Position numbers and translations under genes: made by a program. Below are positions 309 to 26,714 of a stretch of 34,594 nucleotides of DNA, one piece after another; the stretch's first letter is position 1, and each line of letters opens with the position of its first letter. The stretch comes from a virus. The DNA is taken from the IMG/VR virus record IMGVR_UViG_3300008108_003759, positions 1-34,594 of that record; one strand, 5' to 3'. The notes beneath the pieces are model-generated. The model saw only the letters and a program-made list of their open reading frames with translations. It was not told the origin of the DNA and did no database searches.

Positions 309-1412
309 TTAATTTTGTACTATAATTATAGTACTAGTCGATCCTTTATTAACGTTTTGTATAATTGTTTGTCCATCTTGTATTAAAGTAAAAGTAACAT
401 TTTTTGTTGTATCAAAAGTTGCTGTAGCATTATGTGTGCCTGCTTTATATAAAGTGACTTTACTTTGATCGTCATTAAAGTAATATAATAGTCCTAATGA
501 CTTATTAGAACTATAACCTGGCAATACAGGTATATCTAATTCGTCTCCTAACAAACTGGCATTTTGTCTATCTAATTCGTTTAATGAATTGTAAGCTAAC
601 AAATCAGCGTCAAGGTCATTTCTATCTAGTGATGTTTTTTTGTCCAACGCATTTTCATCTAATTTAGAATATTTTAATAAGTCAAAATCTAGTTCATTAA
701 AATCTAATAGACCTTTTTCTTTCTTAACGGTACCTGCATTTTCCGCATCTGCAACTTCTTTTGGTTTACTGATGATCAACATGTTATTAATATTAGCTTG
801 ATCAATTTTAATTACTACAGGTTCGGTTGGAGGAGTATACGCACTATTGACTAGTGTAGCCTGGTATGGAACATCTAATAAAACTACGCCGCCAAAGTTT
901 CTAACTTCAATTGCTCCAGTAACACAGCCGCCTTTGGGATCACAACTAGGAAGAAGCATAACTAAACTCCTTCCTAGTTCGTCCACAGTCATTGAAAAGT
1001 CTGTACCACGAACAGCAATACTGGCGGTTGGTGTTTTAATTGCTACCTGTTGAGGATTATTTTTGGCAATCTGTCCGCTGGCATAACGTGCGGTACCTAA
1101 AGCCATATTTAAAGCCAACTTACCTGAACCTTTCTTTGGATCATATACAAAATCATCTATGATCATTTTACTGTGTTCTGTAAGTTTGACTGTAGTTTTA
1201 TCTTCAAAAGTTAATTCGGCTTTAGCTTTGGCTGTAGAGACGGTGTCATTCATCTCTACGCCCGTGTTTAGACTAGAAGGAATACTTTTCTTATTCCTTA
1301 AAATTTCTGTAGGCCCGGTCTGTTCAGTAACTTTGCCAACACCGGCAAAGCTATTAATCGGACTGAGTAACAACAACGTTGTTATTAGAACCGTTACTGG
1401 TAATAACTGCAT
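309..1412 (-). CDS. FecR-domain exported protein
   Basis: A 367-residue protein with an N-terminal signal peptide (MQLLPVTVLITTLLLLSP, cleavage near SFA-G). Residues about 25-150 match the FecR fold: alternating beta-strand pattern with a VEMNDTVST segment, a LTFEDKTTVKL strand pair, then KTPTASIAVRGTDF, which is the FecR signature. The rest is Asp/Leu-rich with LDxNxLD-like repeats (about 240-300). FecR domains sense or bind in the periplasm; here no FecI sigma factor or receptor is visible, so a structural or adhesive role beside the curli genes is more likely. ATG at 1412 is preferred over the upstream start at 1430. The first 59 bases overlap the end of the curlin-like gene in another frame. 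Confidence 0.75.
   Translation of the reverse strand: MQLLPVTVLITTLLLLSPINSFAGVGKVTEQTGPTEILRNKKSIPSSLNTGVEMNDTVSTAKAKAELTFEDKTTVKLTEHSKMIIDDFVYDPKKGSGKLALNMALGTARYASGQIAKNNPQQVAIKTPTASIAVRGTDFSMTVDELGRSLVMLLPSCDPKGGCVTGAIEVRNFGGVVLLDVPYQATLVNSAYTPPTEPVVIKIDQANINNMLIISKPKEVADAENAGTVKKEKGLLDFNELDFDLLKYSKLDENALDKKTSLDRNDLDADLLAYNSLNELDRQNASLLGDELDIPVLPGYSSNKSLGLLYYFNDDQSKVTLYKAGTHNATATFDTTKNVTFTLIQDGQTIIQNVNKGSTSTIIIVQN
317..352 (-). promoter_or_regulatory. Possible sigma70 promoter with 18-bp palindrome
   Basis: TATAAT (325-330) with TTAATA (347-352) 16 nt upstream reads as a moderate sigma70 promoter for the secreted gene at 227. The -10 lies in a perfect 18-bp palindrome, GTACTATAATTATAGTAC (317-334), so TATAAT occurs on both strands. 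It overlaps the 3' end of the FecR-like gene. Confidence 0.35.
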
Positions 1413-2025
1413 TTTTAGCGAATACTCCACTCTGTGTTAGGGTTACAGCATTAGCAATCGTACTTGTGCCGCTACCTGAAACTGTAATTTCTCCTGAATG
1501 TAAACCTACTCCCGATGCAGTATGCGTTACGTTGTTATAATTTCCGTTAATAGCAATTTTGCTCTGAACAACGCCGCCACTTAGTGTTTGTACAGTATTG
1601 TTGTTATTACCTGTAATTTCAGATCTGATGATGCTGGCGTTACAAGCAGAACTTAATGCAGTTCCACAACCAATAGTTTGATTGTTATTACTTCCGTCTG
1701 CTGAAACTACTACTGTTGCGCCAGTGCCATTGGATTCATTATTGATAATCATGCTAAGTGTATTACTAGCACCAATTTGACTGATAGTTACGTTGTTAAG
1801 GTCGCCTCTAATCAGTGCTGCATCATCAGCATTACCGTTACCACCAACGTTACCATTGACTAAGTTGCCAGCGCCTGTTTGTGTGATTGAAACTGATGAG
1901 TTATCACCAATTTGTTCTACATAAACATCGTTGGCCCACGCTCCCGATGACATCATTCCAGATGTCATTAGTATTGCAAGTAGTTTTCTCGACAACTCGC
2001 CACCGCCTGTGATTCTTTTTTTCAT
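1354..2025 (-). CDS. Curlin-repeat (CsgA/CsgB-like) protein
   Basis: A 223-residue exported protein with signal peptide (hydrophobic stretch about 13-30, cleavage near AWA-N). The mature part has curlin-type units with the pattern Q-x-G-x-x-N: YVEQIGDNSSVSITQTGAGN, then VTISQIGASN, NNNQTIG, ITGNNNNTVQTLSG and a final NGSNNNVVVTQSD. CsgA and CsgB polymerise as amyloid from such repeats on the cell surface. Repeats here are looser than in enteric CsgA, and several units have lost the terminal Gln. ATG at 2025 is preferred over an upstream TTG because GGAGCG lies 5-8 nt before it. It follows csgG in the same direction. CsgA versus CsgB cannot be decided. Confidence 0.75.
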   Translation of the reverse strand: MKKRITGGGELSRKLLAILMTSGMMSSGAWANDVYVEQIGDNSSVSITQTGAGNLVNGNVGGNGNADDAALIRGDLNNVTISQIGASNTLSMIINNESNGTGATVVVSADGSNNNQTIGCGTALSSACNASIIRSEITGNNNNTVQTLSGGVVQSKIAINGNYNNVTHTASGVGLHSGEITVSGSGTSTIANAVTLTQSGVFAKNAVITSNGSNNNVVVTQSD

Positions 2026-2106
2026 TTTTCGCTCCGGATGCAAGTTATGTTTGTTAATGCATCCATATTTTAGTTTAATAAAGACTTTCTCCTATGCTTG
2101 ACTCAA

Positions 2107-3294
2107 TTATGATTTGTGTTCTGAAAGCACGTCAGTTCGCACATACCCTTTACGCTTCTCGGCGTCTACTACAAAATACCATCCTTCGGTAACTGTTCCT
2201 TGTATGCTTAACTCTGTTCCTTTTTTCAACAACCAAGTTCTTTGACTTTTTTCGTTTGGTTCTTTATAAACATAGGAATCTTGTTTAAGATACACAGTTG
2301 TAAACTCTGTTTTTTTCTCTTCACGCTGAACTACTGTTTCTACTTTAGCCTCAGTGCCTCGCTGGTTGTTGGTTTCGTCTGTTTGGCCTGCTCCATTGCT
2401 TTCTCTGACGCTGGAGTTTGTCTGTGTGGATGGTAGGGGCTCTGCGGCTCTTTGGGGTGTTTGTGAGGTTTGTGGTTGAACCAACTCATCTGTCTTCTCC
2501 TCTTTAATAGCAGGTTTAGCAAGTTTGTACCTCCATAGGCCTTTTTTCTCACCTTCGACTATCATGTCGTGTACTGCTTGTTCTATAGCTACTCGTACTG
2601 CATAAGTTGTAGGCTCGTTTAAAGCCATACCGTTTTCTAACTCTAAACTTTTTGTCCCAGCATCAACAAAACGAAGTACGCCTACATTATGTTGAGTACT
2701 GTAAATTGTTTTGCTCACAGCATTTGTAATCAAAACTTCACCACTGTTAACACTAACTAATCTTAAACTAATTACAATTTCATCTACACGATACTGCTGA
2801 CTTCCTCCAATACCAAGAAATCTTGCACCATTACCACCACTACGTATATTACTATCGTAGCCAATAATGCCGCCTTCAATCATAATGCCTGCCACTGTCA
2901 TAGGTTTAAGAGGACGGGCATCTTTGCCTTCGTATACTTCGCGTTGATTTCGAATTAATTGTCTTTCTTTTACAAGATTATCTAGTCCTACACGTTCTAC
3001 TACTTTAAACCAATTTTTACTGTCTTGTAAACTTTTAATTAAAAATACTTCAGCGCCTTGTGTAACTGCCTTTGAAAATACTGCCAGTCTGTCATTAGGT
3101 TTCATTTGTCCAGTCTTGTCCATAAAACCGTAGACTGCAACAGTCATTGAAGGACCATCTAACTCTGGAAGTTTTTCTATAAGATTTTCTCTTGTTTTCA
3201 AAGATATAGGTTCTTCCCTAGCGGCATCCATATGAACAGTAGCACAGCCTGATAATGTTCCTGCTACTAGCAATGATAACAATAGTTTTTTCAT
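2107..3294 (-). CDS. csgG: CsgG-family curli secretion pore with C-terminal SH3 domain
   Basis: A 395-residue outer-membrane lipoprotein. Signal peptide with lipobox LSGC (lipidated Cys17). Residues about 25-255 align by eye with CsgG, the nonameric curli pore: VAVYGFMDKTGQ, NWFKVVER, ERQLIRNQR, IIEGGIIGYDSN, VDEIVISLRLV, and the C-terminal amphipathic region. Escherichia coli CsgG is 277 residues; the extra 120 residues here are a low-complexity Gln/Thr/Glu linker (about 258-325) and an SH3b-like module (about 330-392, VYLKQDSYVYKEP, LLKKGTELSI, GYVRTDVL). SH3b modules often bind cell wall, so this version may anchor the pore to peptidoglycan; that is inference. Its ATG overlaps the csgF stop (TAATG). 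Confidence 0.9.
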   Translation of the reverse strand: MKKLLLSLLVAGTLSGCATVHMDAAREEPISLKTRENLIEKLPELDGPSMTVAVYGFMDKTGQMKPNDRLAVFSKAVTQGAEVFLIKSLQDSKNWFKVVERVGLDNLVKERQLIRNQREVYEGKDARPLKPMTVAGIMIEGGIIGYDSNIRSGGNGARFLGIGGSQQYRVDEIVISLRLVSVNSGEVLITNAVSKTIYSTQHNVGVLRFVDAGTKSLELENGMALNEPTTYAVRVAIEQAVHDMIVEGEKKGLWRYKLAKPAIKEEKTDELVQPQTSQTPQRAAEPLPSTQTNSSVRESNGAGQTDETNNQRGTEAKVETVVQREEKKTEFTTVYLKQDSYVYKEPNEKSQRTWLLKKGTELSIQGTVTEGWYFVVDAEKRKGYVRTDVLSEHKS

Positions 3295-3743
3295 TAGAAT
3301 GCAAAGCTCGCTATAGGAACAACAATTTCTGTACGACTGCCATTAGATTCTATAATCGTAAGGGTAACATCTGTACCTGTTTTTACCCAACTGATATTAG
3401 TTCCTTGAAAATTCATAGTTCCGCTGTCGCCGCCGCCTTCAGAAAACATTTGATCTGCCAGTTGTTTAGATAACTGAGCATATATACGTGCTTCTACGTT
3501 TACTAGGAATTTACTTAGATTTGTTTGTTTGGCTGCTGCTTCTGCCTTGGCTATAGCGGCTAGTTCTTCGCTTTTTATTTCTTTCTTTTTATTTTCTTCT
3601 AATTGATAGATGCTAAGAACGTGCTGACTGTAGCCATTGCCAGGTATAAAGGCAGGGCTTTGGAATTGATGTACTAATTCTGCATACGCTGGCGAGCATA
3701 GAGACAGAATTATTCCGCCTAAGGTAAAAAGTTTGAATTTCAT
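3294..3743 (-). CDS. csgF: CsgF-like curli assembly factor
   Basis: A 149-residue protein with a cleavable signal peptide (cleavage near AYA-E). The mature N-terminus reads LVHQFQSPAFIPGNGYSQ, matching the CsgF segment that plugs into the CsgG pore (TFQFRNPNF in Escherichia coli). The middle is a charged helix and the C-terminus a beta-rich tail (GTDVTLTIIESNGSRTEIVV). In the known system CsgF couples CsgG to CsgB on the surface. Immediately upstream of csgG, as expected for a functional pair. Start supported by GGGAGCGAATC before ATG; a late-type promoter box lies at 3769-3776. Confidence 0.85.
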   Translation of the reverse strand: MKFKLFTLGGIILSLCSPAYAELVHQFQSPAFIPGNGYSQHVLSIYQLEENKKKEIKSEELAAIAKAEAAAKQTNLSKFLVNVEARIYAQLSKQLADQMFSEGGGDSGTMNFQGTNISWVKTGTDVTLTIIESNGSRTEIVVPIASFAF

Positions 3744-11069: not shown

Positions 11070-11472
11070 CATCTTCGTCGTCCTCTTCGTCTTCGTCGTT
11101 AAATTGATTAACTATTCCTTCTAAATCCCAAATTCTGTTTTTGCTTATTAGATTGTAAGGTGTAGTTTCGTCTAATGTTATATAGTGAGCATTGGGCTGT
11201 GCTAGTAAAAATGTGACAAACTTTTGAGTTATTGGATCACAGTTATCTACATCAATAACTACAACATCGACTTGTTGAGCAACACTTAGCATCCATGCTA
11301 TATCTGTTTCTTTTTCATCAAAAATGAATACATTTAAATCATCAATACATTTACTAAGTATTGACTGAAATTGTTGTTTCACAGAATTTGAAGGTTTAAC
11401 TAACAAATAACTTAAATTTAAATTAAAAAGTTTGTCGGGTGGGGTTATTAGAGTTATTTTTCCTAAGTTCAT
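11056..11472 (-). CDS. Conserved phage hypothetical, acidic tail
   Basis: A 138-residue soluble protein, reading MNLGKITLITPPDKLFN at the start, with alternating hydrophobic strands and helices (VFIFDEKETDIAWML, VDVVVIDVDN, HYITLDE), which suggests a small Rossmann-like or receiver-like fold. It ends in an acidic run DEDEEDDEDDELQ. It resembles a hypothetical seen next to bS21 in marine T4-like phages, as I recall. No catalytic motif is visible. Overlaps both neighbours. Confidence 0.65.
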   Translation of the reverse strand: MNLGKITLITPPDKLFNLNLSYLLVKPSNSVKQQFQSILSKCIDDLNVFIFDEKETDIAWMLSVAQQVDVVVIDVDNCDPITQKFVTFLLAQPNAHYITLDETTPYNLISKNRIWDLEGIVNQFNDEDEEDDEDDELQ

Positions 11473-11629
11473 ATATCCTACTTACAAAGTCTTTTAAACG
11501 CTCTGGACTATAATTTGCAAATTTTGGTCCTCGAGATTTAGTTTCTTCTACAAATTCATACAATGCAGGGTCTGTAAACCTATCAATTATCAAATCTTTA
11601 AATTGATCTTTGTCGTACAGCCTGTACAT
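11423..11629 (-). CDS. Short reading frame, likely the -1 frame extension of the upstream gene
   Basis: From the first ATG this gives 68 residues (EFVEETKSRGPKFANYSPER, DFVSRIYELRK). The same frame is open without a start codon back to the A9 tract at 11762-11770 of the upstream membrane-protein gene, adding 44 sensible residues (EQIITGYVQNAEQTEGTIWS, RISGLKPKDE). The ATG has only a weak ribosome-binding site. It is therefore best read either as the C-terminal part of a -1 frameshift product of the 11707-12930 gene, or as the result of one missing A in the sequence. As an independent gene it is less convincing. Overlaps the next gene by 50 bases. Confidence 0.6.
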   Translation of the reverse strand: MYRLYDKDQFKDLIIDRFTDPALYEFVEETKSRGPKFANYSPERLKDFVSRIYELRKNNSNNPTRQTF

Positions 11630-11706
11630 TTCGTCTTTGGGTTTTAATCCAGAAATTCTTGACCAAATCGTTCCTTCAGTCTGTTCAGCATTTTGAACGT
11701 AACCAG

Positions 11707-12930
11707 TTATGATCTGTTCTTTATCTGAATCTGTCCTTGGTTGTCCTTGGTCATGTATGTCTTTTTTTTTGATTCTTCTGTTTCTTCTGCCTCAGGAGAG
11801 TCTGATTCAACTTGAGCCTTTTTCTCTTCTTCAACTGCCTTTTCAGCTTCCTCAATCATTTTGTTCCATTGCTCCAGTGGTATGACTGGAACAGATGGCT
11901 CTTCCTGCTTTACTTCTTCAATACGTTCTTGAACACGCTCTTCAGCTTGTTTAAGAAAGTCTGGTTCCAAATTTATTGCTTTTTCCTCCGGCGCTGTTAT
12001 ATCACCTCCTAGTGCAGTCGACGGTGTTTCGTTTGGAACTTCTACAGGTTGTTTTACTGATGGGAATGGCCATACAGTTGGAGAATCATTAGTTGGTTCG
12101 GGTTCTTCTTTTAGAATTGGACCACGAACTCCGTTAGAAAAATCATATTCGTCTCGTAATGTATTTTTATTTTCTCGGTGCCATTGGAAGGTCATTTGCG
12201 CAGCCAATAACATAATAACAGCCAACGGATCGAATACAATAACAATAAGAATAATGATCCATGTAACTGCTTTTTCAAGCATATTCTCATCAGCGGCCTT
12301 ATCACCGTAAATGAATTTTGCTATGTATTTTATAGGCCCAACTTCCGCTTCAACTTTGCGTACTTCGGCTGCGATTGGTGCACGGCTTTCATTAAGTTGT
12401 ACAATTTTCTTCTGTTCGGCTTCGATTTCAGAAAGTAGTCTACCACGTTCCTTTTGTTGGGACCTACGTACAGCAACGGCTTTATCAGCACCTTTCTCGT
12501 CTGAGCTACGTGCCATAACTTGGTCCACCGCTTCATCCATTTGTTTAAGCGCCTTGCGGTTAGCATCGATATTGTCCTTGGCTATTTTAATTTTTTCATC
12601 GTATAGTGCTATCTTACTTTGAACATCGCCGCTGACTAGATTTTGATCATTATGTGCTTTGGATAGGAAACCAAAGATACCCATGCTGGTAATCAACATA
12701 AGAACTACAACGGCAATAATCATGTAGTACTTCATGAAACGTGGAGCACGTTCCCAATTGGCTTTAAGCCATGAGGCACAGACAAGTTTGCCTACTTCTA
12801 AAGCTGAGCCCATGATAATGATTGGAATCACAGCCGCAGAGAAAATAGCGGCCAGACCTACTACGGAGTAATAGATTGCGACCGCTGAGATTGTTAAACC
12901 AGTTAGTAGTAGTAACCAGGCTAAAGTCAT
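11707..12930 (-). CDS. Membrane coiled-coil phage protein
   Basis: A 407-residue protein with four hydrophobic segments, about residues 3-23, 28-50, 68-88 and 222-245, flanking a long coiled coil (about 105-195, Lys/Glu/Ala-rich). The C-terminal 150 residues are acidic and Pro/Glu-rich. Similar multi-TM coiled-coil proteins are conserved in marine T4-like phages; function unknown, with roles in membrane remodelling or virion assembly possible. The last 17 codons follow a slippery TCA-AAA-AAA-AAG (11761-11772); shifting to -1 there would replace them with a 112-residue extension. It opens right after the structural gene at 12939. Confidence 0.75.
   Translation of the reverse strand: MTLAWLLLLTGLTISAVAIYYSVVGLAAIFSAAVIPIIIMGSALEVGKLVCASWLKANWERAPRFMKYYMIIAVVVLMLITSMGIFGFLSKAHNDQNLVSGDVQSKIALYDEKIKIAKDNIDANRKALKQMDEAVDQVMARSSDEKGADKAVAVRRSQQKERGRLLSEIEAEQKKIVQLNESRAPIAAEVRKVEAEVGPIKYIAKFIYGDKAADENMLEKAVTWIIILIVIVFDPLAVIMLLAAQMTFQWHRENKNTLRDEYDFSNGVRGPILKEEPEPTNDSPTVWPFPSVKQPVEVPNETPSTALGGDITAPEEKAINLEPDFLKQAEERVQERIEEVKQEEPSVPVIPLEQWNKMIEEAEKAVEEEKKAQVESDSPEAEETEESKKKTYMTKDNQGQIQIKNRS
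11761..11772 (-). promoter_or_regulatory. Candidate -1 frameshift site (TCA-AAA-AAA-AAG)
   Basis: Nine A then G, in frame as A-AAA-AAG, the most efficient bacterial -1 slip heptamer. The -1 frame stays open for 112 codons to the stop at 11423. An identical site ends the gene at 25219. Confidence 0.5.
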
Positions 12931-19448: not shown

Positions 19449-21714
19449 TTATAATTTACAAGCCTCGCAATCTTCTTCTAACAGTTCTACACTAACCTGA
19501 TGTCCGTTCATTCCAGCAACATGATATCCATTAACTTCTTGTGCTACTTCAATTGCTTTACTTCCTGCTTTGTTGATTAAACTATAGTAAAATGTTTTAA
19601 TTCCCCATAACTGTGCCTGCATTAAATTTTTTACAATTAATGTTGTAGGCACTTTACGTTCTGGAAAGTGTGCTGGATTGTAGAATGTATTTGTACTAAT
19701 ACTTTGGTCAACGTAAGCCGCAAGCACAGCCGCAGTCTTCAAATAACCATCACAGTCTTTCTGTTCCCACATTAGTTGATACTTGTTCTTTAACTTATGG
19801 TATTCTGGAACTACTTGTGTAAATGATCCTGCTTTTGATTCTTTAGTTGAAATTAAACTCATTGGCATTTCAATGCCATTTGTACTATTAATAACAACAC
19901 TACTAGACTCAACTGGAGCAATAGCCATAAGAGTAGCATTTCGTACACCATGTTCTTTCATCTCCTTACGTAAAGGTTCCCAATCTAGTTCTGGGGTAAA
20001 GTCTGCTAATTCATTTACACCTTTAGCACGTAGTTCCCAAGGGAATGTTCCTTGCCCGTAACGTGTCTTATCGCTATGTGTACAAGCGCCGCGTTCTTTA
20101 GCCAACTCAACAGTAGCTTCTGTTAGATAATATGCTTGATGCTCCATCCAAGATTTAACATCTTGTAGTGCATCCTTCTCGCCGTATTTAAGACTACGCT
20201 TGGCATGCCAGTAGGCTAGATTAGTAACACCAATCCCTAATGGTTGAATCTCGTCATTGCTAAGTTTACTTTGAATACTTAAGAAGTCTTGATAATCAAG
20301 AATATTACATAAAGAACGCTGAAGTATGCGGCAAGCACGACGCATGTCTTCTGGATTGCGGAAAGCTCCCCAGTTGATACTACCAAGTGTACACAAAGCA
20401 ATACGGCCGCTATCGTCATCGAGACGCTTAAAAGATTTAGTAGGTAATAAAATTTCACAGCAAAGGTTACTCTGGTAAATTGTGTGATACTCAGGATCAA
20501 AAGGCCCCTGGTTCATGACATTGTCAATAAACACTAGATAGATACGTCCTGTATCAGTACGTTCTTTCAATATGCCCGACTTGAATACTTCTTCAGCGGA
20601 CATTGTCTTCTTGCGTAGGTCTTTACGCTTTTCGTATTTTACATACAGCTCTTCGAATAAGGAAGTATTTTTATAGAAGGCTTCATACAAGTCTGGGACT
20701 TCGTTAGGATCAAAGAATGTTATGTCTTCCTTGTTCTTGAAACGTCTCCAAAAGAATGCGGAGAGTACGACTCCATAGTCCATGTGGCGGACTCGTGTTT
20801 CCTCTGTTCCTTGATTATTCTTGAGAACAATAAGGTCATCAAACTGATGATGCCAAATAGGATAAAACACAGTAGCACTAGCATTACGAATGCCTCCTTG
20901 ACTACAACTACGTAAATCGCCAAACCATTTTTTCAGGAATGGTATCATGCCGGTGTGCATGATCTCACCACCTCTGATGGGACTACCTAACGGACGAAGA
21001 CGTCCAATCTCTAGACCAATGCCAGCTCGCTTGCTGTTTAGTAGGAGTGCCGAGCCCAGCCAGCACAGGTGTAGCAAGAGTAAACAAACCATCGGATGCT
21101 GCTGCATAGTATTCTTTAATGTAACGCATCCTTGCGCTATTCGGCTCTTCCTTATGGAACACAGTTGCAGCCGCAACCATGTATCTAATCTGTGGAGTTT
21201 CATATATTTCCTTAGTAGCTCTGTTGCGTACCAAGTACTTCTCAATCAACTGCTCAATAGCCGCATAAGAGTATTGCTCGTCTTTTTCATGATCCAGCAT
21301 GTCATTCATTCGGTTCCAATCTTCTTCACTGTACCACTCAAGAAGTTCTTTGGCGTACAAGCCTGTTGCAACATTTTTTTTCACAATGTTGTATAAGTTT
21401 GGAACTTTATAGTCGCCGTATACATCTTTACGTAACATACTAAGTCGTTGCTTACCTGCTACATATTGATAGTTTACATGGCCCACGTCTGGATTGTGTT
21501 CAACATCGATTAAATCAACAATAGCACGTAATGTAATTTCATCAATTTCTTGTGTAGTGATGCCGTCATAGAAATGAGGCTGACTTTTGATTTCTATCAT
21601 GGACTGGCTAACATCAGCTATTCCACTACAAACTTTTGCTATCTGAGCTTGCCACTTTTCTACTGCTAATGGCTCTTTGTTTCCGGATCTTTTAATTACT
21701 GTTATTTTGTTCAT
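19449..21714 (-). pseudogene. nrdA: Ribonucleotide reductase large subunit NrdA, broken by a frameshifting deletion
   Basis: Two frames together give one NrdA. The first (21714 to about 21045) carries the ATP cone (TVIKRSGNKEP, HFYDGITTQEI) and the N-terminal domain up to ATPVLAGLGTPTKQ. The second resumes at KRAGIGLEIGRLRPLGSPIRGG and runs to 19449, with the SNLCCEI centre (Asn, Cys439 and Glu equivalents), IALCTLGS (Cys462 equivalent) and the redox tail CEACKL. Between them about 27 residues, including the Escherichia coli Cys225 equivalent, are missing, and the frame shifts (about 83 bases lost). Without Cys225 the enzyme should not reduce ribonucleotides. Either a true null, a minority variant, or an assembly error; neighbouring nrdB and grx are intact. 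Confidence 0.85.
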
Positions 21715-24164: not shown

Positions 24165-24172
24165 ATTTATCA
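24165..24172 (-). promoter_or_regulatory. Late-type promoter box (GATAAATA)
   Basis: GATAAATATCC about 23 nt upstream of the tail-fibre start; it includes the stop codon of the exonuclease gene. Confidence 0.6.
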
Positions 24173-24856
24173 GTTTTGTGCGTAGTATTGTTCCACCCGT
24201 TTACACCACTCTTCGGTCCAGTAGTCAAAATCCTTAGGTTCTAGGATAAACTCCTGATATTCATAGTCTTTACTGCACATTAGAATAACGCCCTTGCGTA
24301 TGTTAGTGCCGTGTACTTCGTTGTGTGCTAGAGCGTAGGCTGTTAGCTGTAGGAAGTAGTCGCTAATCCACTCTAATTTTTTAGGTTTGTTAGTTTGTTT
24401 AAAGTCTAGTATTGATTGATCGCCATCGTGTACGCCACAGCAATCTGTAGTTCCTGCATATAAGCCTGGAAAATACAATGGAACTTCACTGCCCCAGACT
24501 TCGTGTATTTTAGGAAATCCTTTTGCAATAACTAGTTTAGCCATATCTAGGCTTTGTTGTGCAAATGGGTTTGTTACTGTTTCTTTTAGCACATCACCTT
24601 TGATGTAGTCTTCAAGATACTTGTGCATTCTTGTACCACGACCAGCGGCTTCTGTAACAATCTCTTGTGCTTTCTTTTCTCCAACTGCCTTCTTCCAGTT
24701 TGCCAGTGCTGCTCGAGCTTCTGCTGGTTTAGTTTTATCTAGTATTGTAGTTACACTAGGAACTTTGTCGCCGTCGGGAGTGGCATATAAACGTTTGCCT
24801 GTTGATTCGTCTCTAGTAAGTTTGGTATATGTATATCGTGATATTAGTAGGGTCAT
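24170..24856 (-). CDS. RecB-like PD-(D/E)XK exonuclease
   Basis: A 228-residue nuclease of the RecB/Cas4-like PD-(D/E)XK family. Motifs in order: VPSVTTIL near residue 33, GRGTRMHKYLED (His and Glu of motif I), LYAGTTDCCGV (Asp of motif II), SILDFKQTNK (Asp-x-Lys of motif III), and FLQLTAYALAHN (Gln-x-x-x-Tyr). Comparable proteins in marine T4-like phages are annotated as exonucleases for DNA processing or recombination. It has its own sigma70 promoter whose predicted start coincides with the ATG, inside a perfect inverted repeat. Confidence 0.85.
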   Translation of the reverse strand: MTLLISRYTYTKLTRDESTGKRLYATPDGDKVPSVTTILDKTKPAEARAALANWKKAVGEKKAQEIVTEAAGRGTRMHKYLEDYIKGDVLKETVTNPFAQQSLDMAKLVIAKGFPKIHEVWGSEVPLYFPGLYAGTTDCCGVHDGDQSILDFKQTNKPKKLEWISDYFLQLTAYALAHNEVHGTNIRKGVILMCSKDYEYQEFILEPKDFDYWTEEWCKRVEQYYAQN

Positions 24857-24891
24857 AGTGCAAGTATATAGTCATTTGCACTATGAGTCAA
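24854..24891 (-). promoter_or_regulatory. Sigma70 promoter with operator-like inverted repeat
   Basis: TTGACT (24886-24891), 17-nt spacer, TATACT (24863-24868). A perfect 10-bp inverted repeat, CATAGTGCAA (24876-24885) and TTGCACTATG (24854-24863) on the minus strand with a 12-nt gap, brackets the -10 and includes the exonuclease ATG. This is the layout of a repressor operator; alternatively an RNA hairpin. Confidence 0.6.
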
Positions 24892-24895
24892 CGAA

Positions 24896-25117
24896 TTATT
24901 TGCCCAGCTTGGTTGCACGTTTAGCCATTTGACTGACTACGCCAGAATCCTCTTCTCCGCCTACTTCAGGTTGTTGTTTGGAGTCTTGTGTTTTAACAGT
25001 CACACCTGAACCGTCAAATTTTACTACAAGATTGTGTAGGACTTGTTTTTCGGGAGGTAGGGTTTGTTCTTCTTGCCAACGTTTTGCAAACGCTGTATAA
25101 GAAATTGGAATGCCCAT
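24896..25117 (-). CDS. Small reading frame, likely the -1 extension of the upstream virion gene
   Basis: From ATG 25117 this gives 73 residues (MGIPISYTAFAKRWQEEQ, LVVKFDGSGVTVK). The frame is open upstream to the A9 tract of the preceding gene, adding 35 plausible residues (SETIDPLVRTLFTAQSAG, TWNALKN) with no ATG, GTG or TTG. The ATG has no Shine-Dalgarno and lies in the loop of a perfect 11-bp hairpin (25105-25136). So it is probably expressed as a frameshifted C-terminus of the 25219-26229 gene, or the sequence lacks one A there. No domain recognised. Confidence 0.6.
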   Translation of the reverse strand: MGIPISYTAFAKRWQEEQTLPPEKQVLHNLVVKFDGSGVTVKTQDSKQQPEVGGEEDSGVVSQMAKRATKLGK

Positions 25118-25136
25118 ATTTTTTAGGGCATTCCAA
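25105..25136. repeat. Perfect inverted repeat around a start codon
   Basis: Arms TTGGAATGCCC and GGGCATTCCAA (11 bp) with a 10-nt loop, inside coding sequence. As RNA it would hide the ATG at 25117 and lies about 85 nt downstream of the slip site. Confidence 0.8.
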
Positions 25137-25218
25137 GTTAATGGTGCTTTTGTATCTTGATTGTCGCCTGCGCTTTGAGCCGTGAATAATGTTCTTACTA
25201 ACGGATCAATTGTTTCAC

Positions 25219-26229
25219 TTACTTTTTTTTTGATACTTCAGAGGCCAATAACATGCCTAGTTTACGGCTATAGTTGATGCTTTCTCTTTTTTCTCTGCCT
25301 ACTTCTGGTGCTGGAGGGGTTGTTTCTTCTGCACCGGCTGGTACTGGAGGAGCTTCTGCGCTCATCTCATCACCTAAGCCTGCTGCAGCTTGATCCATTG
25401 GGCCTGCTGCGGGTGCTGGTGCTCCCATAGTTGATACTTCACCGCCTGATACAATTGATAATGCGCTTGAAAGTCCCTGACGTGATGTTTCTAATGCTGT
25501 GTAGATTGCCTCTAATGCAGGCTTAACTGCTTCGTTATAGCTTTGAGCTACATCGCTTCCTTGGGTTTCTCTTATAGAGTCTAATAATTCTAAAAGCTGT
25601 TCTGCTTTCATAGCCGCTACATCTTCTAACCAACCTGTAATACGATCGACCATGTCTTTAGTAGCCATGATAGTTTCAGCTTTGGCTTCTTCGCCTTCTA
25701 AAAGCATCCAACTAGCCTTGCCTTCGTTAATGTCATAACGAACTTTTAATTCAGCTTTGAGTTCTTCTTTGTCTGCTTGGCCTAGTTCAATGCGTTTGAG
25801 TGCGGTTTCAATCCAACTTTCTGGAACGGACTCACTCATTGCACGTTTGCGGATTGTTGCAAAATAAGCGTTTTCGCCTTTTTCTTCTCCGTATTGTTTT
25901 TTCATTGATTTTTTCATATTAGACTTGTCAGTCTTTGCTTTGATATCTTTTTCTTTTTCTTTTTCGCCTGGTGTCATTTCACGCTCTAGTATTTCTTGAT
26001 TGATACAGTCAAGCATCAAACGTGTTTTTTGATACTGTGGGCTCTCAAGCACAGAATCGAACGCTTCTGAAAGCTCCATTTGACTCAGTCTTGTGCGTAG
26101 TTTGTTACGTGCATCTTCTAACTGAACATCTGAAAATTGCTCAAAGTTAATAGTGTAGCCAAACTTTTTAGCTAGGTTTTCGTTGAGTACTTTTGATGTT
26201 ATTGGTTTTTGAAATTCTCTAATTTGCAT
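25219..26229 (-). CDS. Virion or prohead protein with capsid-targeting-like leader
   Basis: A 336-residue mostly helical soluble protein. It begins MQIREFQKPITSKVLNEN: the shared tag, with a candidate prohead-protease site LNE/N after residue 17. Blocks such as DARNKLRTRLSQMELSEAFD, MATKDMVDRITGWLEDVAAM and KPALEAIYTALETSRQGLS resemble a conserved structural protein of marine T4-like phages, as I recall. A Pro/Ala-rich linker (about 268-312) precedes a C-terminal helix. It ends at a slippery TCA-AAA-AAA-AAG-TAA. A perfect late promoter is upstream. Confidence 0.75.
   Translation of the reverse strand: MQIREFQKPITSKVLNENLAKKFGYTINFEQFSDVQLEDARNKLRTRLSQMELSEAFDSVLESPQYQKTRLMLDCINQEILEREMTPGEKEKEKDIKAKTDKSNMKKSMKKQYGEEKGENAYFATIRKRAMSESVPESWIETALKRIELGQADKEELKAELKVRYDINEGKASWMLLEGEEAKAETIMATKDMVDRITGWLEDVAAMKAEQLLELLDSIRETQGSDVAQSYNEAVKPALEAIYTALETSRQGLSSALSIVSGGEVSTMGAPAPAAGPMDQAAAGLGDEMSAEAPPVPAGAEETTPPAPEVGREKRESINYSRKLGMLLASEVSKKK
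25222..25233 (-). promoter_or_regulatory. Candidate -1 frameshift site (TCA-AAA-AAA-AAG before TAA)
   Basis: Nine A then G directly before the stop. In frame it is A-AAA-AAG, and the -1 frame stays open for 108 codons to 24896. Same sequence as at 11761-11772. Confidence 0.5.
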
Positions 26230-26255
26230 GATTCTGTCCTAGAAATCTTATTACG

Positions 26256-26263
26256 TATTTATA
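26256..26263 (-). promoter_or_regulatory. Late promoter box (TATAAATA, perfect T4 consensus)
   Basis: TATAAATACG 27 nt upstream of the ATG at 26229. Confidence 0.7.
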
Positions 26264-26714
26264 CAAAACTCCACTTAAACATCCGAGAAATTTCTTCCTG
26301 ATAGTGGGCTCTGCGTAAATTGCTCTCTTCTAATCTATTTAACAAAATTAGATATCGCTCAGTTTCTTTTGCATTCTTGATGTTATTTTTAAAAATAATA
26401 GCGTCTGTGTAACTAGCCCAATACAAGTTGTCTAAACTTTTAATTTCTTGAAACTTGTCAAGCTGTACAGCACTATAGGCTTTAGCAGCCATTACTGCAC
26501 AAGTTTTCATGTAAAACTGATCAACATAGGCTTTATTCTTAAAGTTAAACACAGCCCAGTTGCCTTGTTTAGTTTCTTTAATTATATAATCCTTGTAAGC
26601 AACTGCTCCGTGTTTAAGCGTTGTCAATTGCATGAACTTGCTAAATTCCAAATTAAGTTCTTTAGCTAGTTCTTTAACTCTAATTGTTGGTATCTTACGG
26701 GTTGATTTTTTCAT
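26259..26714 (-). CDS. Hypothetical phage protein
   Basis: A 151-residue basic, soluble protein with an opening MKKSTRKIPTIRVKELAKEL that resembles a short helix-turn-helix-like segment, then mixed strands (GNWAVFNFKNKAYVDQFYMK) and C-terminal helices ending MFKWSFV. No family recognised. Overlaps the upstream gene by 20 bases. Confidence 0.6.
   Translation of the reverse strand: MKKSTRKIPTIRVKELAKELNLEFSKFMQLTTLKHGAVAYKDYIIKETKQGNWAVFNFKNKAYVDQFYMKTCAVMAAKAYSAVQLDKFQEIKSLDNLYWASYTDAIIFKNNIKNAKETERYLILLNRLEESNLRRAHYQEEISRMFKWSFV

Follow-up and report, generated by a model that had tools for sequence, protein, structure and literature searches.

A conserved nine-adenine run and a start-less −1-frame domain point to programmed recoding at the end of a virion protein gene in uncultivated large phages

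Introduction

A viral sequence of 34,594 nucleotides (34.6 kb; IMG/VR virus record IMGVR_UViG_3300008108_003759, hereafter the window) carries on its minus strand a gene (26229-25219) that ends GTA TCA AAA AAA AAG TAA. Behind this end the −1 frame, which begins with GTA (25222-25220), runs through 108 sense codons to a TAA stop at 24898-24896. The locus thus raises the question of whether the nine A's are a signal by which some of the gene product is extended from 336 to 444 aa (336 + 108), or a place where one A was lost during sequencing. A first-pass annotation, made from the sequence of the window, had put forward both readings. Its description of the gene end and of the 108 open codons is confirmed by the coordinates, and so is its statement that the −1 frame lacks ATG, GTG and TTG over its first 35 codons, the earliest of these being the ATG at 25117 (codon index 35, counted from zero). 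The features discussed are collected in Table 1.

Table 1. Positions of the two candidate slip sites of the window and of the features around them
Feature	Position	Strand	Remarks
0-frame gene, 336 aa, predicted virion structural protein	25219..26229	-	phrog_14154, 8e-8; homology to PA5oct gp247 and synteny
A9 slip site (site 1)	25223..25231	-	next base G 25222, then 0-frame TAA 25221-25219
−1-frame extension, 108 codons and stop	24896..25222	-	predicted winged-helix-like domain
Exonuclease gene directly 3' of the slip pair	24170..24856	-	42% identity to PA5oct gp244; synteny anchor
Stem-loop, 13 bp with mismatches	25175..25209	-	9 nt past the 0-frame stop
Perfect 11-bp hairpin within the −1 ORF	25105..25136	-	
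Second slip gene, 0 frame, 407-aa predicted membrane/coiled-coil protein	11707..12930	-	
Second A9 slip site (site 2), GAA TCA AAA AAA AAG ACA	11762..11770	-	17 codons 5' of the 0-frame stop
−1 extension of the second gene, 112 codons (DIHDQG...NNPTRQTF) and stop	11423..11761	-	

The gene product and its −1-frame extension

The 0-frame protein is predicted to be all-helical, with a disordered linker at residues 265-314 and a conserved C-terminal helix (KRES.dYSRrLgmlLaSKKK). Its earlier description as a tagged virion protein gains support from its profile match to the virion structural proteins of PHROG 14154 and from homology to gp247 of the Pseudomonas jumbo phage PA5oct, which lies in the same gene order and is annotated as detected by ESI-MS/MS. 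Other searches gave little: blastn against isolate phages returned no match, tblastn with the 0-frame protein found only a short motif shared with Synechococcus phages, Pfam matched neither half and Rfam had nothing in 24700-26400. At residues 86-130 (about 25840-25975, minus strand) most homologues have a CxxC..PCxC cysteine motif, replaced in the window protein by a KKSMKKQYGEEKGENAYFATIRKRAM segment, and the same part is the one common to Synechococcus phages.

The extension is conserved right from the junction (E..DPLV.TLR.LQS...), and purifying selection acts on it in the −1 frame only (pN/pS 0.50; the two remaining frames have 0.97 and 1.59). Its predicted fold includes a block of pLDDT 87-95 over residues 11-80, with the elements in a winged-helix-like order. 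Foldseek searches with this domain found nothing significant in the PDB, where several weak winged-helix matches were returned, and three uncultured-phage proteins in BFVD (E 8.5e-4 to 1.3e-2). The A9 loci share no conserved start codon: the first ATG, GTG or TTG of the −1 frame stands at a median codon of 26.5 and, in 11 of the 96, at or after codon 60, so that in these 11 the domain cannot come from independent initiation.

Two further observations concern other parts of the window. The gene for the large subunit of ribonucleotide reductase (nrdA) is split at 21034-21036 (minus strand), between ORFs 20983-21714 and 19449-21245, where about 80 bp of the relative G003 (L477) are missing, out of frame; this gap is either a real deletion or an assembly fault. 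At 309-3743 (minus strand), the translations suggest a cluster of genes for a CsgG-like lipoprotein, a curlin-repeat-like protein and a FecR-like protein.

The nine-A run among relatives

A homologue search with the 0-frame protein, using patterns that avoid its 3' end, provided an unbiased set of 80 loci. All 78 complete genes of this set, like the window, end (T/C)CA AAA AAA AA(G/C/A) TAA with a −1 ORF behind, the remaining two loci being a contig end (L080) and an internal indel (L081). A search with the −1 domain alone added 79 loci, of which 77 have the identical junction. A table of 96 non-redundant loci from freshwater and marine contigs, for which a run of at least eight A's was required and with which the unbiased lists agree, contains 93 loci with A9 and three with A10; none of the complete loci has A8 or A11 and longer, a seeming A8 (L168) having been left out because its contig starts within the run. 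A scan of genome contigs added just one relative, which sits in a Neomarinimicrobiota MAG and also has A9. Set against the expectation from family codon usage (TCA about 70% of TCN serine codons, AAA 64% of lysine codons), the nine-A gene end goes far beyond chance. The recurrence of the same A9 in some 100 independent loci also disposes of the missing base (A10 read as A9) that had been considered for the window.

The codon 5' of the run is TCA, CCA or GGA, its third base being always A except for one TCG (L384), where the nine A's are kept in a different phase. In 86 of the 96 loci a G follows the run, and the heptamer in 0-frame phase is mostly A_AAA_AAG, otherwise A_AAA_AAC or A_AAA_AAA. 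The invariant element, which the first-pass annotation had not recognised, is the length of the run rather than the A_AAA_AAG heptamer. Since the 0-frame stop lies anywhere from 0 to 8 codons past the run, it does not belong to the signal; a shifty-stop model, in which the slip needs an adjacent UAA, was rejected on the marine phages, with stops 1 to 8 codons away.

Besides site 1, the window has just one A9 run, the second site of Table 1. This run is kept in most of 46 distinct run-bearing relatives, TCA-A9-G being present in 39 non-redundant loci. The variants comprise A8G with an intact heptamer (L425, L468), A10 (L488, the G006 contig), A11 (L449) and an A9 in another phase (L464), the latter and L384 at site 1 being the only codon-phase variants that keep A9. 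A few site-2 relatives encode the long form within one frame: in L429, where A10 is fixed, it reads SKKKELHDQ, in agreement with the predicted re-phased product, and the SKKK(E/D) junction of L472 is likewise the one that re-phasing predicts. In the isolates Mosig and Mel-JY01 site-2 homology is limited to the N-terminal part and the A9 run is not present. An 86-kb G008 contig (L489, G008:C1:5500-8500) has two site-1 gene ends and two site-2 genes, and may be chimeric or carry duplications.

Depletion of long A and T runs

The one genome tested in full, that of the 191-kb relative G003, was compared with synonymous permutations of its ORFs. Runs of at least eight A's numbered 4 where 20.6 were expected (A8, 2 against 13.5; A10, 0 against 2.6), T runs of eight or more were absent (4.7 expected), and the sole two A9 runs were site 1 and site 2. 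In-frame A_AAA_AAG was not avoided (14 against 17.6). Across eight large contigs (about 1.35 Mb), 14 of the 16 A runs of nine or longer are again one of the two sites. For many bacteria, Baranov et al. (2005; PMC1088944) found that selection against A/T runs emerges at nine, and they considered a 9A run of conserved length among homologues very likely to serve transcriptional slippage.

Transcripts with A8 or A11 would lead into the +1 frame, which closes early at both sites. At site 1 it does so after 2.7 codons, as against 6.7-7.0 in synonymous shuffles; at site 2 a stop follows after 2 codons in 39 of 39 loci. The +1-stop test is noisy, with |z| values of up to 4.5 at control positions.

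RNA structure downstream of the sites

Stimulators of ribosomal frameshifting characteristically take the form of a downstream stem-loop, for which polymerase slippage 5' of it has no known use. Two freshwater clades have such a stem-loop under selection after site 1 (z about −4.3 relative to synonymous shuffles, about 0 elsewhere), the structure being limited to some 60 nt past the site (mean z −3.9 over 67 representatives); as relatives are not independent, these z-scores are descriptive. Most freshwater relatives have a strong stem-loop, the marine clade and the clade of the window a weak one; its distance from the stop varies from 0 to 27 nt, and site 2 has no downstream structure (z −0.06). 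Its weakness in the marine clade and its absence from site 2 led to the rejection of the stem-loop as a universal signal. A reading of the 80-locus set revealed no AGGAGG-like Shine-Dalgarno motif 8-14 nt upstream of site 1, an element that not every −1 ribosomal frameshift requires.

The first-pass annotation had placed the ATG at 25117 in the loop of a perfect 11-bp hairpin. The hairpin is real, with arms at 25136-25126 (TTGGAATGCCC) and 25115-25105 (GGGCATTCCAA); as to the ATG, its G belongs to the stem, which leaves just the A and the T in the loop. In the window's clade, where the slip-adjacent stem-loop is weak, this hairpin is itself under selection (mean z −2.8 at +74..+134).

Relatives with separate genes

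Aligning the homologues, as the first-pass annotation had suggested, brought out slip-type loci, nearly all with A9, and also relatives with two separate genes. A distant clade (L266-L274, L287-L310) is devoid of the A run: its upstream gene ends in GRGKRA-stop or similar, and a domain with its own ATG (MKLLEVAPDF...) follows, this ATG adjoining or overlapping the upstream stop. Profile comparisons of the second domains (A1 vs A3, E 8e-12; A4 vs A3, E 2e-17) show that the domain of this clade is the extension domain, and the upstream proteins of both arrangements are homologous as well (A2 vs A5, E 1e-25). One locus of the marine set (L387) also has no run and a downstream ATG. Loss of the A run thus coincides with the second domain having a start of its own.

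PA5oct has gp247 (virion structural), gp246 (structural), gp245 and gp244 (exonuclease), one after the other; gp246 has its own GTG start and no A run, and both gp247 and gp246 are annotated as detected by virion mass spectrometry (ESI-MS/MS). The window protein matches gp247 (hhalign E 5e-7), whereas the match of gp246 to the separate-gene profile is weak (probability 73%, E 3e-5). The PA5oct pair, taken with the homology of the separate-gene clade, argues that both parts are virion proteins, which one large group joins by slippage and other groups keep apart. A short tag of the MK.LE or MQIRE kind would stand at the start of each of the separate proteins; where the two are slip-joined, the second domain would be carried by the tag of the upstream part.

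Many genes of the window begin in a similar way (MQIREF, MKIHEL, MKFQEL, MKVREL, MKIHQL, MRFFEF; minus-strand starts at 26229, 26955, 28347, 32978, 33412 and 5565), as does the −1 domain where it is a separate gene (MKLLE). This shared start is possibly a virion-targeting tag.

Which machinery slips

The comparative data support the earlier proposal that a long form is made by ribosomal or transcriptional slippage, and that A9 is programmed recoding of one kind or the other can be held with near certainty. Slips by the polymerase and by the ribosome yield one and the same protein. The conserved A9, the conserved −1 domain without a start, the separate-gene and fused alternatives and, in G003, the avoidance of long A/T runs are observed directly, whereas the leading part of RNA polymerase, the ratio of the two products and what the extension does are inferred. 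In the proposed mechanism, most transcripts would yield the short form, a virion protein of 336 aa with SKKK as its last residues. A re-phased fraction would read SKKK-VSET... and add the 108-residue domain, and the resulting 444-aa form would probably bring this domain into the virion by means of the tagged upstream protein. The main slip would be the addition of one A by RNA polymerase, giving an A10 mRNA, to which the stem-loop at freshwater site 1 would probably add, or tune, ribosomal −1 slippage on A_AAA_AAG.

For a polymerase-led programmed slip making the two forms we see an even chance. Polymerase is favoured as the main slipper because the two different genes have the homopolymer in common, not its surroundings, because nine A's exceed what the heptamer needs while structure is little or lacking in marine phages and at site 2, and because G003 is depleted of long A/T runs and not of the in-frame heptamer. 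The early closure of the +1 frame and the A10 single-frame long form of L429 lend it further support. Against it stand the freshwater stem-loop, the frequent G after the run, which suits the best bacterial ribosomal heptamer, and the two site-2 loci with A8G only (L425, L468), where the heptamer is intact. These last points would be accounted for by a purely ribosomal, dnaX-like −1 frameshift, with tRNA-Lys re-pairing on A_AAA_AAG or A_AAA_AAA helped by a 3' stem-loop: the heptamer is correctly phased in nearly all loci with G as the usual tenth base, the A8G variants retain it, structure is confined to the stretch just past the site, and ribosome sliding on A runs itself depends on run length. 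Such a frameshift leaves the two to three extra upstream A's without a need and does not fit the avoidance in G003 of long A and T runs rather than of the heptamer, the missing stem-loop at site 2, the scarcity of structure in the marine clade, the variable stem spacing or the lack of an upstream Shine-Dalgarno-like sequence, and we consider it possible but somewhat doubtful.

The selected stem-loop after the site does speak for a ribosomal component at freshwater site 1. A design in two layers would set the ratio twice, by polymerase slipping at every A9 and by stimulation of the ribosome at freshwater site 1. It would do justice to two strong sets of evidence that come in part from different lineages; neither site alone requires both, and this reading is unlikely. 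Independent translation of the downstream ORF, with ribosomes either initiating internally or reinitiating after termination at the 0-frame stop, finds a precedent in the distant clade and in PA5oct, where a homologous domain is a gene of its own near the upstream stop. The A9 loci, however, have no conserved start and a peptide conserved from the junction, and own starts accompany loss of the run, which makes this explanation very improbable. A sequencing or assembly error, or a decayed pseudogene, could be suspected because homopolymers are error-prone and the window also bears the nrdA deletion; confronted with A9 in about 100 loci and with the selection on the −1 domain, this deserves almost no credence.

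Comparison with known systems

The closest parallel to a polymerase-led slip is dnaX of Thermus thermophilus, where transcriptional slippage on A9 yields two products from one gene (PMC1088944). The coding-strand run of nine A's and the two products per gene are shared; in Thermus, slippage truncates the protein and the templated A9 encodes the long form, whereas here the templated A9 encodes the short form, and two phage genes are involved. The A11 transcriptional frameshift in tssM1 of Citrobacter rodentium adds extra A's and, at about 20-25%, a C-terminal domain (PMC4256274). There too a poly-A tract lies close before the stop (28 nt in tssM1) and a C-terminal domain is gained, but tssM1 is a single bacterial gene with A11, while the phages have A9 across a whole family and in two genes. 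The −1 ribosomal frameshifts of E. coli dnaX and of IS elements share with the present sites the identical heptamer and phase and, at freshwater site 1, the 3' stem-loop; in the phages, by contrast, no upstream Shine-Dalgarno was seen, stem spacing is not fixed, site 2 has no stem, and the conserved nine-A run exceeds the heptamer.

Among phage proteins extended by frameshifting are those of T3/T7 gene 10, Lactobacillus phage A2, Listeria phages and lambda G-T (PMC5009743, a passage of which also mentions ribosome sliding on A runs). As in the present case, a structural or assembly protein has a minor C-terminally extended form; those cases are ribosomal and concern other proteins, and the present extension is predicted to be winged-helix-like and is a separate virion gene in relatives. 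The PA5oct pair gp247-gp246 shares the gene order before the exonuclease, with gp247 homologous and gp246 weakly so, and differs from the window in consisting of two separate genes with a GTG start for gp246 and no A run.

Significance

The extension of phage structural proteins by programmed slippage is of a known kind. No report of slippage at these genes was found in the literature searched, the coverage of which is incomplete. New here are the family itself, the strict A9 in two genes per genome, the separate, slip-joined and fused states, and the depletion of long A/T runs. That large uncultivated phages have in A9 a two-product switch in two unlinked genes, purge long A/T runs genome-wide, let the pair move between separate, slip-joined and hard-fused states, and rely on RNA polymerase to slip, is a composite picture to which we give slightly less than an even chance.

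In hundreds of metagenomic phages, gene callers have split or missed a conserved C-terminal domain of a virion protein, and A9/T9 runs in such genomes are suggested as a guide to further hidden fusion proteins. The natural series of A8, A9, A10, A11, fused and separate forms lets polymerase slippage and ribosomal frameshifting be distinguished. If the polymerase-led reading is true, conserved transcriptional slippage would set the virion composition of a DNA phage.
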